Assembly: GCA_019347895.1 (NCBI GenBank)
Contig: JAHWKM010000005.1
Coordinates: forward strand, 1 to 60,485
Direction: 5' to 3'
Length of the DNA: 60,485 bases
Source of the DNA: Candidatus Parcubacteria bacterium
Lineage (GTDB): Bacteria; Patescibacteriota; Saccharimonadia; Saccharimonadales; 2-12-FULL-41-12
The notes beneath the pieces are model-generated. The model saw only the letters and a program-made list of their open reading frames with translations. It had not been told where the DNA came from and searched no databases. Each line of letters opens with the position of its first letter. The stretch's first letter is position 1. Position numbers and translations under genes: made by a program. Below, one piece after another: positions 4,791-24,368 of the stretch.

Positions 4791-6095
4791 CTATTTTGAG
4801 AGTTTTGTGAGTAGATCATCGACTTTAACTCTTTCTTGTTTTGTCGTGTCTCTGTCCCGAATTGTTACATCATTGGCGTCTAAGCTCTCAAAATCTATTA
4901 CTACGCAATATGGGGTGCCTATTTCGTCTTGTCGACGATATCTTTTGCCGATGTTGCCGTTGTCGTCCCACATGACGTTGCCAAATTCTTTTTTCAGCAT
5001 GTCATAGACTTCTTTGGCTTTAGCGACCAACTCCGGTTTATTTTTTAGCAGCGGGCTGACTGCAACTTTAACCGGCGCTAAATTATGAGGCAGTTTTAGA
5101 TATGTGCGTTTTTCACCGTTTATTTCATCTTCTATGTAAGCTGAGGTTAAAACCGCCATAATCAAACGTTCTATGCCGAAGCTTGGTTCAATCACATGCG
5201 GCAAAAATGGTTCATTTCCGTCTTTTGGACGGTATTGCATGTTTTTTCCTGAAACTTTTTGATGGTTGGATAAATCATAATCAGTGCGGTAAGCAAGACC
5301 GAGCAATTCGTCTTTTTTGTGCGGAAAATCGAACTCAAAATCGATCGTGCGCTTAGAATAATGCGCCCTATCTTCTTCTGGTACTTCTAGCTCATGGACA
5401 GATTCCTCAGGTAAGCCTACTTTTCTTAAAAATGTTTTTATGCTTAAACGCCAATTTTCAAAAGCTTCTTCCCATTCATCCGGATGGATAAAATATTCAA
5501 TTTCCATTTGCTCAAACTCCCGCGAACGAAATACAAAATCACGCGGGCTTATCTCGTTTCTAAATGCTTTGCCAATTTGAGCGATACCAAACGGAATATC
5601 AGGATAAAAACTATCAACTACATTATTAAAATTGGTAAAAATCCCCTGTGCTGTTTCCGGTCGGAGAAAAGAATCTGGCGATTTTGCGTCTTCAACCGCA
5701 CCAAACTTAGTCTTGAGCATCATGTTAAACATGCGCGGTTCGCCAAAGGCATCTATTTGGCCACAGGTCGGGCATTTATTATCCTCCAAATGATCTGCCC
5801 GAAACTGCGAATGGCAATTAGTGCAAACTACTAAGGGATCTTTAAAACCTGCTAAGTGACCGCTGGCTTCAAAAACCTTTTCAGGCATAATTATTGCTGC
5901 GTCCACGCCATACATATCGGCTCGGTCTTCGACAAAGGTTTTCCACCACAGACTTGTGATATTACGCTTTAGCGCTACGCCCAAAGGACCGTAATCCCAC
6001 GTTCCGCTCAGACCGCCATAAATCTCAGAGCCTTGGTATATAAAACCCCGGCGTTTGCAAAGCGAAACAATATCTTCTAAAGAAATATCACTCAT
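4791..6095 (-). CDS. glyQS: Glycyl-tRNA synthetase (single-chain class II type)
   Basis: The 434-residue protein is the homodimeric, class II GlyRS that charges tRNA-Gly. It begins with the family N-terminus (LCKRRGFIYQGSEIYGG) and contains a zinc-type insertion with CTNCHSQF and CPTCG near residues 87-112. Class II motif 2 is FRNEISPRDFVFRSREFEQM and motif 3 is EPSFGIERL. The C-terminal anticodon-binding domain starts around residue 340 (LAPVKVAVSPL). The length is normal. The ATG follows a TATAAT box by 8 bases, with no Shine-Dalgarno, pointing to a leaderless mRNA. Confidence 0.97.
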   Translation of the reverse strand: MSDISLEDIVSLCKRRGFIYQGSEIYGGLSGTWDYGPLGVALKRNITSLWWKTFVEDRADMYGVDAAIIMPEKVFEASGHLAGFKDPLVVCTNCHSQFRADHLEDNKCPTCGQIDAFGEPRMFNMMLKTKFGAVEDAKSPDSFLRPETAQGIFTNFNNVVDSFYPDIPFGIAQIGKAFRNEISPRDFVFRSREFEQMEIEYFIHPDEWEEAFENWRLSIKTFLRKVGLPEESVHELEVPEEDRAHYSKRTIDFEFDFPHKKDELLGLAYRTDYDLSNHQKVSGKNMQYRPKDGNEPFLPHVIEPSFGIERLIMAVLTSAYIEDEINGEKRTYLKLPHNLAPVKVAVSPLLKNKPELVAKAKEVYDMLKKEFGNVMWDDNGNIGKRYRRQDEIGTPYCVVIDFESLDANDVTIRDRDTTKQERVKVDDLLTKLSK

Positions 6096-7102: not shown

Positions 7103-7795
7103 CTATTTTAAATGTTCTTGGAGTAAAAAATTGGAAAGTCCTTCAACTTCTAAAGCATTTTTATTGGGAAGCTTATTGATTTTTACAAATAGTTTTTTGC
7201 TATTAAGGTAGCGGAGGATTTTTATATGATTTTGGTTGTATTTGCCTGATTCATGGACCGCAAAACACTGGTGGTCAAAATCAAAATTGTATTTTTTATT
7301 TGGGGGCAATGGCGCGCCGGTTGATAATGTTTTAAGATTTGGCTCTACGCCTATGAGATTTAGCAGCTTTAGTCCAAACCAAATTTTAATTTGCCCGAGC
7401 GGCAGATTTTTATCATTTAATGATGCTAGCACATTGCTGAGATACGGATAATATTCGCTTCCTTCCTCATCCACGGTAAGTTTATTGACATTTTTTAGGC
7501 AGTCATAGGCATACATTGCTCTGTCTATATCGCTTGTGATATTGCCGTAAAATTTATCCATCCGGCTGGAAGTAAGCATGTACAGATCTCCCCTGCCCTT
7601 TAATAGTATGAGATGATTCTCCGCGAATAATTCTATGCCGCCGGCCAGCTTGCTTTTGCCGGAACGAACGGATTTGGCAATAGCCTTTAGCTTGCCGTGC
7701 TCCTGGCTCAGGACAGTTATGATACGGTCTTTTTCACCGTAATCAATGCGCGCTAAAATTATAGCTTTGTCGGAAATGTTTTTGCTGGTCGGCAT
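7103..7795 (-). CDS. recO: DNA repair protein RecO
   Basis: RecO loads RecA on single-stranded DNA in the RecFOR gap-repair pathway. The N-terminal OB fold is clear (KAIILARIDYGEKDRIITVL, then GKLKAIAKSVRSGKSKL and GGIELF). The rest is the helical RecO C-terminal domain. The usual four-cysteine zinc site of many RecO proteins is not evident, as only one cysteine lies in the region (DHQCFAV). At 230 residues it is of normal size. It lies 6 bases downstream of the receiver-like gene, suggesting that it is cotranscribed with the degenerate two-component pair. Confidence 0.9.
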   Translation of the reverse strand: MPTSKNISDKAIILARIDYGEKDRIITVLSQEHGKLKAIAKSVRSGKSKLAGGIELFAENHLILLKGRGDLYMLTSSRMDKFYGNITSDIDRAMYAYDCLKNVNKLTVDEEGSEYYPYLSNVLASLNDKNLPLGQIKIWFGLKLLNLIGVEPNLKTLSTGAPLPPNKKYNFDFDHQCFAVHESGKYNQNHIKILRYLNSKKLFVKINKLPNKNALEVEGLSNFLLQEHLK

Positions 7796-7801
7796 AGTCT
7801 A

Positions 7802-8176
7802 TTATTCTAAAAGTTTCTCTGCGTTTTTTATAAGTTCATCAAGCGTTACAGATGATTTATACAAGTGTGCGGCCACGCCCATATCTTCTAAGATAGAGTC
7901 CGTAACGCCCAGATCCTCCTTGGGCATTTGGCTGTAAATAACAATAGGAATATTTAGCCATTCAGGATAGGAGCGGAATTCATGAATAAATTCCAGACCG
8001 TTATGCTTGGGCATAAGAAGCTCTAAAATAACCAAGCGCGGAGTACTTTTATCGGCTTGCTCAATGGCTGATTGTGAGGTGTGGGCTATAGCCGAGGACC
8101 TTTCCTGCCTTGCCAGAGCTTGGGCAATAACCAGCGCTAACTCCTTTGACGGTTCGATTATAAGCACGTCTGTCAT
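7802..8176 (-). CDS. Receiver-domain protein with Glu in place of the phospho-acceptor Asp
   Basis: The 124-residue protein is a lone receiver (REC) fold with no output domain. The position that is normally Asp (VILDxxMP) reads VILELLMP, so the acceptor is Glu52. The acidic pocket is also reduced: LIIEPS instead of the usual two or three acidic residues. The conserved Lys is kept (LYKSS near residue 106), and the switch position is Ser (IVIYSQ). It should not take up phosphate and may be locked in an active-like state. It overlaps the upstream kinase-like gene by 4 bases (translational coupling). Compare the canonical receiver at 16528. Confidence 0.85.
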   Translation of the reverse strand: MTDVLIIEPSKELALVIAQALARQERSSAIAHTSQSAIEQADKSTPRLVILELLMPKHNGLEFIHEFRSYPEWLNIPIVIYSQMPKEDLGVTDSILEDMGVAAHLYKSSVTLDELIKNAEKLLE

Positions 8177-8916
8177 AAAAGATGCAATTGCTGGCTTTTT
8201 ATCAGCCGCAAGGCCAAGCCGCTGCTGCTGCCCCTTCTCGCGACATGCAAACCGTCGCCGGCAGCATTAGCAAAAAGATCGGCGATAGCCAAATGAACAC
8301 CGCTGCTTTTTGAATGCAAGGCTATAGCCAGATGCGAGTTGCCTTGAAGTTTGCGGGCCAGCGACATCTCGCTCCGGCTGACTTCAAGATTGGCCAGCAC
8401 GGATACGGTCACATTATTGCCCCGCTGCCTTCTGGCGCTAACCATGATCTGTCTGGTAGATTTTTCTTCTACTGATTCCAGGGCCATGTTCAATAAGCAC
8501 CAAAGTGCGGTTTTTAATCCTTTGGGGTTAGTTTCTACCGTCTGGTCATGAATGTCGGAAATCAAGTTAATTCGCTGGCTGGCGGCAACTGGCCGAAATT
8601 CCTCAAGAGCATCATATATAACCGATCCGATACCAATTGTCTCAAGCGGCAGTTTAACCTGCCCGTACTCTGACTGAGCTAGCAGCAAGTAGCTGTCAAT
8701 CAGTTTTAAAGTCTGTTCAGCGGTATTCTGGATTGACGCGAAAGACGCGTCAGAGGAATTCAGCGCTTCAAGTTCTGCCTGCCGGGCAATTAGAATTAAC
8801 GGGTTTTTTAATTCACGGGCCAATGCCCCGAGCAGCTGCGTATTACTTGGAAAATTTTGATTTTCGCCCACAGAATTCCCCCGCTTTTCTTTAATAATTG
8901 TATCACGCGCACTCAT
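8173..8916 (-). CDS. Degenerate histidine-kinase-like protein lacking the catalytic histidine
   Basis: The protein has the layout of a soluble histidine kinase: a dimerisation helix pair, then an ATPase-like region. In the H-box, where kinases read SHELRTPL or SHELKNPL, it reads ARELKNPL, so the phospho-accepting His is Arg. The N-box (CLLNMALESVE) lacks the expected Asn residues, no DxGxG box is visible, and the last glycine box is altered (GVHLAIADLF). All catalytic boxes are thus damaged, though the frame is intact. The start is uncertain: ATG 8916, TTG/ATG at 8937, or GTG 8871 preceded by GGGGGA are all possible. It has no membrane segment and no sensor domain. Confidence 0.75.
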   Translation of the reverse strand: MSARDTIIKEKRGNSVGENQNFPSNTQLLGALARELKNPLILIARQAELEALNSSDASFASIQNTAEQTLKLIDSYLLLAQSEYGQVKLPLETIGIGSVIYDALEEFRPVAASQRINLISDIHDQTVETNPKGLKTALWCLLNMALESVEEKSTRQIMVSARRQRGNNVTVSVLANLEVSRSEMSLARKLQGNSHLAIALHSKSSGVHLAIADLFANAAGDGLHVARRGSSSGLALRLIKSQQLHLL

Positions 8917-8974
8917 TACTATAGCAAGCTGTAGCATTTAAGTTTCTTTAAAAGTCTGCCTATCCTTGGAGGAA

Positions 8975-9364
8975 CCAAGACATTTCGGCAGTACTTCGTA
9001 CCTTCCCCGACCCACTTTCTTGTGTTGACAAGAAAGTGGGCAAAGAAACGCTCGTCAGGTGATAAAACGCGACTGAAGCGAGATACCAGAATCATGGAAT
9101 TCTAATTATTGGGTTTGGGCATTGAGAGCCGTCCTGATTGGTGAGTGTCAAAAACACAATTACTAGCGAGGCAGTGTTAAGCCAATTTCTCTTTGGAAAT
9201 AATGCAAAATTGGTGAGTTTGCCGAGCATTGTGTCTTTTGACAATGAGCCAGTCAAGATGGTTCGACGCCCAAGAGCTTTTGCATTCTTTTGTCGGCACA
9301 AAAGAATGGACTTGGTTCTTGGTCGCAAGAACATGGCTTGGTTCTTCACTAGAAGAACATGGTT
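8975..9364. repeat. Structured multi-hairpin repeat, copy 1
   Basis: This 0.4-kb gap holds no credible gene. It has a small hairpin (GTACttcGTAC at 8991), a perfect 12-bp hairpin (CCCACTTTCTTG/CAAGAAAGTGGG), a core at about 9111-9285, and three hairpins at its right end (CATTCTTTTGT/ACAAAAGAATG, GTTCTTG/CAAGAAC, GTTCTTC/GAAGAAC). The core pairs as nested stems: TTGGGC/GCCCAA, CTGATTGG/CCAGTCAAG, GTCAAAA-ACACAAT with its complement, GGCA/TGCC and CCAATTT/AAATTGG. The right end stops 1-4 bases before the stop codon of the gene at 9365. Copies 2-4 keep these stems with different sequences. Confidence 0.85.
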
Positions 9365-10015
9365 TTATGGCGAAAATGTAAGGTCAGGCAAGATTATATT
9401 ATTGAAGTCTTTAAACCGGTCCGAAGCTTGGCTGGCAATAGTTATGGTTTTATCCCTTAGCGGCAGGACTATGACAGATTCAACCCTACCCTCTTCAACC
9501 TGCCCGTCAAATTTAACACCTACGACACCCGGTACTTTAGGCAATGAATACGCTACTGCCTTTAACAATCCATCCCGGACTTGGCCTTCGTATTTAGTTA
9601 TTGATTCATCATAAGACATACCTTCAACAGTTATTTTTAAAGCGTGCGGACTGTCATTCGCAGCCGATACAAACTTCGGGTTAAAGATATACTCCGCATT
9701 TTCCTCGTTTAGTATGTAGGAGCTCCAGGTTTTAGGATAGCTGACTTTTATACCCCCAAATTGTGCCGGCCCCTGGTATTCACTCAAAGGAAATTTCTCG
9801 CGCTCCAAAAATTCATTGTCTTTCTCTGTTGCGAGCTTTTCGTTAGCCACCTCTACGGCCGCTTCAATCTTTTGGTCGACATTATTTTTATAATCATTGC
9901 GCTCGTAAAATGCCCAGGCAGCGAAACCAAGTACTCCAAAAAAGCATACTGATGAAATAATCAGCGGTATTAATAAAATGTTCAAAGCGCCCTGTTCGCC
10001 GAGTTTACGCTTCAT
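9365..10015 (-). CDS. Hypothetical protein with one N-terminal membrane helix
   Basis: The 216-residue product has a short basic cytoplasmic start (MKRKLGEQGALN), one membrane segment (about residues 13-35), and a charged helical linker. A mostly beta extracellular domain follows, beginning around residue 85 (GGIKVSYPKTWSSYIL). The domain resembles the PsbP/MOG1-like folds often seen in such anchored proteins, but I cannot name a family. Function unknown. Its stop codon touches the right end of structured repeat copy 1. Confidence 0.6.
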   Translation of the reverse strand: MKRKLGEQGALNILLIPLIISSVCFFGVLGFAAWAFYERNDYKNNVDQKIEAAVEVANEKLATEKDNEFLEREKFPLSEYQGPAQFGGIKVSYPKTWSSYILNEENAEYIFNPKFVSAANDSPHALKITVEGMSYDESITKYEGQVRDGLLKAVAYSLPKVPGVVGVKFDGQVEEGRVESVIVLPLRDKTITIASQASDRFKDFNNIILPDLTFSP

Positions 10016-10596: not shown

Positions 10597-10782
10597 TTAG
10601 CTTCTTGTTATTTTCTTGATTTTGGCTTCGGATTTTTTTAAATAAACGTCCATCTCGGCTATTACCTTTTGGCTTTTTTCGTATAATTTTATAGCTTCGT
10701 CCACGTCTAACGACTCGTCTTCCAGCTTGGCTATTAGCTTGTCCAGCTCTGTCTTTAGGTTGGTGTATTCATTTGAGCTCAT
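10597..10782 (-). CDS. xseB: Exodeoxyribonuclease VII small subunit
   Basis: This 61-residue protein is the regulatory small subunit that binds the coiled coil of XseA. It shows the family pattern: LDKLIAKLEDESLDVDEAIK, then a helix with KLYEKSQKVI. It overlaps the 3' end of xseA by 14 bases, which fits coupled translation and the fixed ratio needed for the complex. Confidence 0.92.
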   Translation of the reverse strand: MSSNEYTNLKTELDKLIAKLEDESLDVDEAIKLYEKSQKVIAEMDVYLKKSEAKIKKITRS

Positions 10783-11890
10783 TTATTTTCACAACCTCGC
10801 TAGTTAACTCGCCGTCGATTAATTCTATGGATATATGTTCTTTAATTTTAACATCCTTTGTCCCCCGTACCTGTTTTTGGCGGCTATTCCTAATTAGCGC
10901 GTAGCCTTTATCCAGCGGCAATTTTGGATTCAAAGCGTTAATCAAACTGGCTTTTTGGTCTAAATTTATCCGTTCTTGTTCAACTTTTGTGTTCAATTTC
11001 TGGTATAAATATTCAACTATACGAAGATTGTCTTGTCTATTCTCTTCAATAATATGGCGGACATTTCTCTGTAGATTTTTTTTGTTTTGTTCAAAAGCTG
11101 ACTTCTCATGCCGGCCGTCGGGCACCAGAAGCTCCGCGGCGTTGCTGGGCGTACTGGCACGCTGGTCAGAGGCTAGCTCAGCTAGGCTTATGTTTCTTTC
11201 ATGGCCAATAGCTATCAGTGTAGGCACCCGGCTGGACGAAATGGCGCGTACAACCCGCTCATCCGAAAATGCCGCCAAGTCGTCTTCGCTTCCGCCGCCG
11301 CGTATCAGCACCAAAGCTTCCGGCGGATCAGCCATCTGACTGACAAAATTAACGGCTCTAATGATCTGTTCCGGCGCGCTGGCGCCTTGTACCAGGCAAT
11401 CCAACACTTCTATTGTTAGGTTGCCCCAGCGTGCATTAATAATCTTTATAAAATCACTATAGGCAGCTGAATCAAAAGAAGTAATCAAGGCAATTCTGCC
11501 AGGGGGGTAAGGCAAAGGGCGCTTGCGGTCTTGGCTAAAAAGACCTTCTGCTTCCAGCTTCTTAGCTAAAAGTGATTTAGCCTTGGCGATCGAACCTTCC
11601 CCGGTGACCTTGATGCTTCTCGCATTTACAGAAAAACCGTATATATTATGCAGCCAGGGTGATCCGTTAACCTCTAGGTTCATCCCGTCCTCCAGCGGAC
11701 CGGGCAAGACTGTAACAGGACCAAAAAATTTCAGCGAAGACTTTTCATCCTTAAGGTCAAAATAAACCCAAGCGTTTTTGCTGATTCTCAGATTTGCCAG
11801 CTCGCCGCGCACATTAACATCTGGCAGAATCATCTGCATGGATTGGTTAAATACAGCTACGAACTCACTGACCGATAGAGTTGGCGTCAT
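10769..11890 (-). CDS. xseA: Exodeoxyribonuclease VII large subunit
   Basis: XseA is the catalytic subunit of exonuclease VII, which degrades single-stranded DNA in repair. The N-terminal OB domain covers about residues 1-100 (NVRGELANLRISKNAWVYFD). The catalytic part contains RIALITSFDSAAYSDF, ALVLIRGGGSEDDLAAF and IGHERNISLAELASDQRAST. A coiled-coil region and a C-terminal strand (KGYALIRN) follow. At 373 residues it is shorter than the about 450 of E. coli, mainly through a shorter coiled coil. Its start overlaps the stop of the flippase-like gene by 4 bases. Confidence 0.95.
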   Translation of the reverse strand: MTPTLSVSEFVAVFNQSMQMILPDVNVRGELANLRISKNAWVYFDLKDEKSSLKFFGPVTVLPGPLEDGMNLEVNGSPWLHNIYGFSVNARSIKVTGEGSIAKAKSLLAKKLEAEGLFSQDRKRPLPYPPGRIALITSFDSAAYSDFIKIINARWGNLTIEVLDCLVQGASAPEQIIRAVNFVSQMADPPEALVLIRGGGSEDDLAAFSDERVVRAISSSRVPTLIAIGHERNISLAELASDQRASTPSNAAELLVPDGRHEKSAFEQNKKNLQRNVRHIIEENRQDNLRIVEYLYQKLNTKVEQERINLDQKASLINALNPKLPLDKGYALIRNSRQKQVRGTKDVKIKEHISIELIDGELTSEVVKINELK

Positions 11891-18635: not shown

Positions 18636-19203
18636 AGACATTTCGCACGCACTTCGTGCTTACAGCGAGATACTTTTCCCTGCAGCAGCAAAAGTATGCA
18701 AAAGTGCTGCAGCAGGTTACCAAACACGACTGGTTTGAGATACCAGGCTGGTTGGTTAGGCAAAAAACGTCCCTTCGGGGCCGGTCTTCGAATTTATTAT
18801 TAATATAAGATGATTCTCAGACTAGCTTTTGCCTAAGCCATTCCAACCAGCGCAGGTTCAAACCAATCGGTTTGGCAAGTGCTGGTTAAAAGCAGATGAG
18901 AAAACAAGTTTTTCTCAAATAATAAATAATGGCAATTCCATTTTTTGGGTTTGGGCATTATGGAGCGCCCTGATTGGCGAATGTCAAAAACACAATTAGC
19001 AGCGAGGCAGTGTCTAAGCCCCGCCCTCTATTGAATTAATTAAGGTGGGGTGAGTTTGCCGAGCGTTGTGTTTTTTGACAATGAGATAGTCAAGGTGCGT
19101 AATACTGCCCAATCGGTTTGGAATACCTTTGCCGAAACAAAGGTATTGATTTGCTTCTTTATCCAAAGAAGTATGGCTTGGTTCTTCGCCAGAAGAACAT
19201 AAT
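18636..19203. repeat. Structured multi-hairpin repeat, copy 2
   Basis: This copy fills the gap between pyrG and ctpA. The left part has GCACttcGTGC (the counterpart of GTACttcGTAC in copy 1, with a compensating pair change) and a hairpin ATACTTTTcc/AAAGTAT. A nested insertion (about 18746-18850) pairs CTGGTTGG with CCAACCAG and AGGCAAAA with TTTTGCCT. The core at about 18944-19115 has TTGGGCA/TGCCCAA, CTGATTG/TAGTCA, GTCAAAAACACAAT with GTTGTGTTTTTTGAC, GGCA/TGCC and CCCCGCC/GGTGGGG. Three hairpins end 1-4 bases before the ctpA stop. The small ORFs here are not convincing. Confidence 0.85.
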
Positions 19204-23814: not shown

Positions 23815-24090
23815 TCCGGTACTTCGTACCTACAGCCATCTTCTTTCGACAAAGAAGCAAGTCCATTCTTTTGTGCCGACAAAAGAATGCAAAAACTCTT
23901 GGGCGTCGATCCATCATGACTGTCTCATTGCCAAAAGCAACAACGGCTTGAAAAACTCCCTTTGGTCGGCTTCGCTCTTTATTAATTAATAAAGATGTCG
24001 CTCAGCTCGCTTTCAAGCCTTAAAGTTGTTGTTTTGACACTCGTCAATCAGGACGGCTCTCTATGCCCAAACACGGGAGAATGGAATTTC
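23815..24090 (-). repeat. Structured multi-hairpin repeat, copy 4 (inverted)
   Basis: Read on the minus strand this is the same core as copy 1: TTTGGGCATAGAGAGCCGTC, CTGATTG with CAGTCA, GTCAAAACAACAAC with GTTGTTGCTTTTGGC, and GCCCAAGAG at the end. The hairpin CATTCTTTTGT/ACAAAAGAATG and a GGTACTTCGTACC hairpin complete it. The inner part differs from the other copies: a 9-bp stem GGCTTGAAA/TTTCAAGCC holds a CTTTATTA/TAATAAAG hairpin. It faces copy 3. Confidence 0.8.
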
Positions 24091-24368
24091 CATTACTATT
24101 TAATTTGAGAAATTGAAGAATTTCTCATCTACTTTTGGTCAGGCTCTGGAAGTTCCTGATGAGTGAATGTCTAAAGCACAATTTCTAGCGAGGAAGTGTC
24201 TGAAGCTTTCCATCCTATGGATCAATAAAGGAAGGCTGAGTTTTCCGAAGCATTGTGCTCTTTGACAATGAACTCCTCAAGAACTGGAAGCCGCCTGCGG
24301 CATTTTGGGATACTTTTGCTGCTGCTGGGAAAAGTATCGACTTGTTTCTTGGTCACAAGAAAATGACC
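24085..24368. repeat. Structured multi-hairpin repeat, copy 3
   Basis: This copy lies on the plus-strand orientation of copies 1 and 2. It pairs CAGGC/GCCTG, AGTTC-C-TGA-T-GAGT with its complement, GTC-AAA-GCACAAT with ATTGTGC-CTTT-GAC, GGAA/TTCC (GGCA/TGCC in copies 1 and 2) and GCTTTCC/GGAAGGC. The shared segment with AATGGaaattCCATT and a GAGAAA/TTTCTC hairpin joins it to copy 4. Right-end hairpins ATACTTTT/AAAAGTAT and TTTCTTG/CAAGAAA stop a few bases before the prfB stop codon at 24369. Confidence 0.8.

Follow-up and report, generated by a model that had tools for sequence, protein, structure and literature searches.

A histidine kinase and receiver pair without phosphorylation sites, conserved between xseA and recO in the Saccharimonadales

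What is left for a two-component gene pair to do once both partners have lost the residues that carry the phosphate? The question is raised by a locus in a stretch of 60,485 nucleotides (the window) of contig JAHWKM010000005.1, one contig of a 907-kb genome of the Saccharimonadales (GCA_019347895.1, deposited as Candidatus Parcubacteria bacterium), in which a histidine kinase-like protein is encoded directly ahead of a stand-alone receiver domain. Saccharibacteria are tiny and for the most part live on other bacteria. A first-pass annotation, made from the letters of the window, had noted Arg in place of the catalytic His, damaged N, D and G boxes and Glu in place of the receiver Asp, and had proposed selection for a phosphorylation-free signalling or scaffold pair next to recO. 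The pair comprises the following features.

8173-8937, minus strand: pseudo-histidine kinase, dimerization and histidine phosphotransfer (DHp) and catalytic (CA) domains only, 254 amino acids from the upstream ATG
7802-8176, minus strand: stand-alone pseudo-receiver, 124 amino acids, intact open reading frame
8173-8176, minus strand: ATGA overlap of the kinase-like and receiver genes, 4 bases
8815-8817, minus strand: CGT codon of Arg41, phospho-His position of the kinase-like protein (sequence and alignment)
8021-8023, minus strand: GAG codon of Glu52, phospho-Asp position of the receiver (sequence)
8150-8152, minus strand: codon of Pro9, which replaces the metal-binding Asp, the second acid of the acid pair (sequence)
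8176-8190, minus strand: QLHLL, last five residues of the kinase-like protein, a clamp-binding-like motif (orthologue alignment)

Both replacements, the intact frames, the overlap and the adjacent recO were confirmed, and the losses go beyond the two phosphorylation sites: in the alignment the N-box Asn of the kinase-like protein is replaced by Met and the G1 Asp by Ala, and the receiver has Glu8-Pro9 instead of the Glu-Asp acid pair. The folds are retained. AlphaFold2 models the kinase-like protein as a two-helix DHp plus CA fold (predicted local distance difference test, pLDDT, 84.9; predicted template modeling score, pTM, 0.80), for which Foldseek returns RetS of Pseudomonas as the best match (E 4e-12), followed by GacS, HK853 and DivL among others, and it gives the receiver a normal receiver fold (pLDDT 94.2). 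With Pfam, the receiver matches Response_reg (PF00072; 39.8 bits, E 6e-10, cut-off 30.2) and the kinase-like protein scores 23.3 bits to HisKA, under the cut-off of 26.9, with no match to HATPase_c; no sensor domain was found in it. What defines an active histidine kinase is thus present as the DHp and CA fold and absent as phospho-His, N-box Asn and G1 Asp, and the receiver lacks both the Asp acceptor and the acid pair of canonical receivers. The receiver is a pseudo-receiver by its fold, its Pfam match and its missing active-site residues; judged from its residues, the kinase-like protein is a pseudo-histidine kinase, a kinase fold without catalytic residues that is under selection, and the pair is not an active two-component system. 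The genome has about nine other kinases and about nine other receivers, and all of those that could be read retain the His or Asp. The likely, better supported start of the kinase-like gene is the second ATG at 8916 (Met8), which aligns with the start of 99% of homologues; a Shine-Dalgarno scan of the window gave matches not above chance.

How widely the pair is shared was determined in 61 genomes, among them that of the window. In 50 of them a relative of the kinase-like protein was found; the other 11 were searched with profiles, which revealed the locus in 8 more and brought the total to about 58 of 61. A contig scan with the window kinase as single query returned no relative; a scan with a receiver alignment returned 80 loci, from Saccharibacteria or Saccharimonadales, or from bins labelled as bacterial or Patescibacteria, one being titled Chlamydiae. 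The kinase-like gene lies just upstream of the receiver in 79 of these 80 loci, and the overlap of four bases recurs in 20 of the 79 homologous pairs. In the first homologue set, the His position is occupied by Glu in 83 of 97 sequences and by His in 2, and the Asp position by Glu in 92 of 96 and by Asp in 2. Set against database-wide losses of 0.9% for the HisKA His and 2.0% for the receiver Asp (PMC12632262), the rate of loss read from the alignments of this locus is more than chance. The co-occurrence of Arg with Glu that the first-pass annotation had suggested looking for did not hold up: Arg at the His position is unique to the window, the usual replacement is Glu, and the constant feature is the absence of His.

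The two losses go together. Neither site remains in 86 of 130 kinase rows and both remain in 36; the Asp alone is present in 5 and the His alone in 3, two of these three being the same genome (Fisher p 5e-25, uncorrected for relatedness). Rows that kept both sites also kept the N-box (34/36), the G1 box (33/36) and the acid pair; in rows that lost both, the N-box and the second acid are lost together, and N-box and G1 residues are replaced in nearly all dead orthologues. The pseudo-receivers carry Glu-Pro-Asp in 75 of 86 cases, as compared with Glu-Asp-Asp in 30 of 36 intact receivers, and beside the Glu they retain the Ser/Thr (85/86) and the Lys (84/86) of the active site. Most invariant residues of the receiver (H58, G60, F63, E66, S69, Y70 and nearly W73) lie in or around helix 3, which presents the conserved face H-x-G-x-E-F-L-Y-E-x-R-S-Y-x-E-W.

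In comparisons of close pairs, the kinase-like gene has a ratio of nonsynonymous to synonymous substitutions (dN/dS; synonymous sites are saturated in many pairs) of 0.029-0.085 and the receiver one of 0.05-0.07, apart from a single value of 0.21; recO is comparable (0.03-0.08, with one value of 0.21 in a distant pair). By this measure the pair is under strong purifying selection. Decay specific to the strain, as an explanation of the double loss, was rejected, the loss being common to most of the order, the pair widespread and dN/dS low. Selection for a phosphorylation-free pair, as proposed at the outset, is supported by the double loss in most of the order, the kept gene order and the purifying selection; that its role is that of a signalling or scaffold pair is what we infer. 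The closest relative bearing on this is a copy from the same genus (L288 / L148), one of just two dead-group genomes with His at the site, which has His at the kinase site and Glu at that of the receiver. The receiver of this copy is intact and the kinase gene interrupted, either by real loss or by an assembly error. Close homologues keeping both His and Asp, which would have pointed to recent decay, were not found: where both residues are present, the copy comes from another family and reflects the ancestral state.

Orthologues with intact sites occupy the same locus in several families of the order (f3, f15, f23, f25, f26, f35, f36) and in another order (f39). These encode kinases of roughly 225-270 amino acids with an intact His and, in nearly all, intact N and G boxes, and receivers with the Asp and, in nearly all, the acid pair. 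The deeper lineages of the class (L315-L321) encode GAF/PAS kinases of 650-1130 amino acids at this locus, with no loss. Because intact orthologues share the locus and the deepest of them are GAF/PAS kinases, the active state is ancestral, the sensor part having been lost next and catalysis last. The dead state requires about 4-5 changes on the trees, as compared with about 17-28 when labels are shuffled. In a five-gene tree the intact families f23 and f26 fall inside the dead clade, and monophyly of the dead group is rejected (approximately unbiased test, p 0.009); in the DnaE tree f23 and f26 are outside this clade and the intact f3 is inside; under a mixture model f26 is outside and f23 still inside, with an intact f35 member pulled in alongside. 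A single loss for the whole dead group was therefore not cleanly supported, and since the trees disagree on f3, f23 and f26 we claim only that losses were few and that the active state is ancestral. Further dead pairs with other replacements, in f13, f34, f20 and f168 (Ser/Glu, Ser/Asn, and Ser with the Asp kept), are likely separate losses. On a sister branch (L222, L226 and L140; f37 and kin), the receiver Asp is kept, another residue stands at the position of the second acid, and Asp takes the place of His in the kinase, a form that may be intermediate or partly reverted.

The feature common to active and dead kinases is found at the C-terminus: the sole invariant column in their mixed alignment is a Gln, present in 128/128 complete rows, which opens a tail of the form Q-[LM]-x-L-[L/F/V/I] immediately following the final strand of the CA fold. 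This pattern ends 121 of 130 kinases versus 2 of 790 neighbouring proteins, and no other stretch of the dead kinases is as well conserved (its mean entropy is 1.08, that of the CA domain 1.81). Tails of active forms read QLSLL, QMSLL, QASLF, QLSLF or QLDLW, and those of the GAF/PAS kinases QLPLL or QLPLI; dead forms mostly end in QLQLV or QLSLV, the window's in QLHLL. When kinases of outgroup genomes are matched to the profile, the match of the recO-linked one runs to position 235-236, and that of most others stops at about 229, before the tail begins. Proteins that bind the DNA sliding clamp often do so through a C-terminal QL[S/D]LF or QxxLF consensus (PMC12309361, PMC4549789), which several active orthologues match near-exactly (QLSLF, QLDLW, QASLF) and the QLHLL of the window more loosely. 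DnaE of these genomes carries a clamp motif of the Q-x-D-L-F type in 27 of 28 cases, QTDLF in the window's own genome. Because the tail matches the published consensus and DnaE carries a similar motif, we regard it as a putative sliding-clamp-binding motif.

From these observations we think it reasonably probable that a former two-component system has turned into a phosphorylation-free scaffold, consisting of a clamp-tethered dead kinase and a Glu-locked receiver. The kinase-like protein would dimerize via its DHp helices, the two tails of the dimer would dock in two pockets of the sliding clamp (DnaN), and the dimer would hold the pseudo-receiver. A Glu beside retained Ser/Thr and Lys can imitate the phosphorylated state of a receiver (PMC12632262), and Glu52 together with these residues would lock the receiver in an active-like shape, its helix-3 face then being a constant binding surface by which a partner at the replication fork is recruited or restrained. 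RecO would be the first candidate partner because of its position beside the pair, and signalling would be set by the location and amount of the pair rather than by phosphate. That the products of the flanking xseA and recO act on DNA was counted in favor of the clamp. As to the origin of such an arrangement, it is quite possible, although we would not presume it, that the two-component system was tied early to the replication clamp and that selection removed the phosphorelay from both partners while keeping the tethered complex.

Some points weigh against a clamp-bound scaffold. In 82 of 92 dead forms the fifth residue of the tail is Val or Ile, off the Phe/Leu of the consensus, and this shift, while DnaE keeps Leu-Phe, suggests weaker clamp binding or another partner. 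A test of low power for covariation across the classical interface of kinase and receiver gave values no higher than the background, for which reason the contact between the two proteins is assumed. Expression may also be the only reason why the cluster has stayed together. The first of these would fit a constitutive complex of dead kinase and dead receiver that forms without the clamp, the tail serving as an internal structural element or as a peptide on which the receiver, or some other protein, docks, and AlphaFold2 does model the tail as a short helix, if with moderate confidence (about 75). We consider this rather unlikely, as the tail comes after the fold has ended, is identical to the clamp consensus in several active orthologues (QLSLF, QLDLW) and is lacking in most of the other kinases that these genomes encode, and as the surrounding genes act on DNA. 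A dead kinase might instead pair with or titrate other active kinases or regulators, in the manner of RetS or DivL and with the dead receiver as a decoy; both proteins are among the structural matches, RetS being the best, and the other kinases and receivers of the genome would offer targets. It appears improbable, given that the networks of RetS and DivL have intact receivers, whereas here the partner in the same operon has lost its site too, and that the tail and the placement between xseA and recO would be left unexplained.

The remaining explanations for the locus are both very unlikely. One of them, that the pair is a relic decaying in reduced genomes and persisting by chance, could draw on the small genomes of Saccharibacteria, the interrupted kinase gene within the genus and a few genomes that seem to be without the pair; it is largely refuted already by the presence of the pair in about 58 of 61 genomes, by dN/dS mostly far below 0.2, and by the Glu, the Glu-Pro-Asp and the tail being fixed across dozens of lineages. 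The other would have the signal pass by different chemistry, through another modification or a ligand bound to the altered CA domain, whose fold is kept and some of whose conserved residues have no canonical role; the protein no longer has the N-box and G1 residues that ATP requires, however, and neither site shows a conserved residue that could serve as acceptor instead.

How does the proposed clamp-tethered scaffold compare with known systems? DivL of Caulobacter is a pseudo-histidine kinase that acts in a network with intact receivers (PMC4211667). It resembles the window protein in its HisKA-type DHp and CA fold, in the replacement of the phospho-His and in being kept for protein contacts; it differs in sensing an intact, phosphorylated receiver, DivK, whereas the operon partner in the window is dead too and the window protein has no ATP boxes, no sensor domain and a clamp-like tail. 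RetS of Pseudomonas aeruginosa, the closest solved structure to the kinase core, is likewise a kinase-like protein that acts by protein contact in a network whose receivers are intact. Unlike the window protein, it is a membrane hybrid acting on an active kinase, GacS, and to our knowledge it has neither a clamp-like tail nor a dead cognate receiver. The pseudo-receivers FrzS, CmrT and NblR share the receiver fold, the frequent change of Asp to Glu and the loss of the second acid, and FrzS uses its alpha3-beta4-alpha4 face, near the face conserved in the window receiver; the review covering them describes none paired with its own dead kinase (PMC12632262). C-terminal clamp-motif proteins such as PolC (QLSLF) and transposases (QLxLF; PMC12309361, PMC4549789) share the Q-L-x-L-[F/L] pentapeptide, with the dead kinases differing by Val/Ile at its fifth position. 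The pair differs from described pseudo-kinases and pseudo-receivers in that both cognate partners are dead, a sensor domain is absent and a clamp-like tail is present. Our literature search found no paper on a two-component kinase with a clamp-binding motif and none describing this locus, and neither histidine kinases nor response regulators are mentioned in the main text of a transposon-sequencing paper on Saccharibacteria.

How pseudo-receivers work was called a mystery in a 2025 review, partly since most known cases are orphans (PMC12632262). Here a natural series exists at one chromosomal place, from sensor kinase and receiver through bare kinase and receiver to the dead pair, with partial intermediates (one family with the Asp kept and the acid pair altered; His in two genomes), which lets one ask which two-component contacts survive without phosphate. 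Should the tail bind DnaN, it would link a two-component pair to the replication fork, a connection without precedent in the literature searched, and this in organisms whose cell-cycle control is almost unknown.

The genes around the pair form a conserved cluster in the order ybhN, xseA, methyltransferase, membrane protein, kinase, receiver, recO, glyS, and the pair lies between xseA and recO throughout the class. In the window this cluster includes:

7103-7795, minus strand: recO (RecO_N and RecO_C), directly downstream of the receiver gene
9365-10015, minus strand: neighbour with an N-terminal hydrophobic stretch, conserved upstream of the pair in the class (73/80 loci)
10769-11890, minus strand: xseA, exonuclease VII large subunit, upstream part of the cluster
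4791-6095, minus strand: glyS-type glycyl-tRNA synthetase, downstream end of the cluster (66/80 loci)

Where recO was found, it is adjacent to the pair in 68 of 74 loci, the other 6 having an overlapping start. The protein encoded at 9365-10015 has no Pfam match; it is probably membrane-anchored and may belong to the same system as the kinase and receiver. The region upstream of the kinase-like gene (8965-9365) holds two dispersed repeat families of about 110 and 260 bp, with roughly 70-91% identity and about 34 matches over many contigs of the genome, further copies in the window being found at 18925-19200, 23834-24072 and 24154-24365; such an abundance of repeats is striking for a genome of 0.9 Mb.
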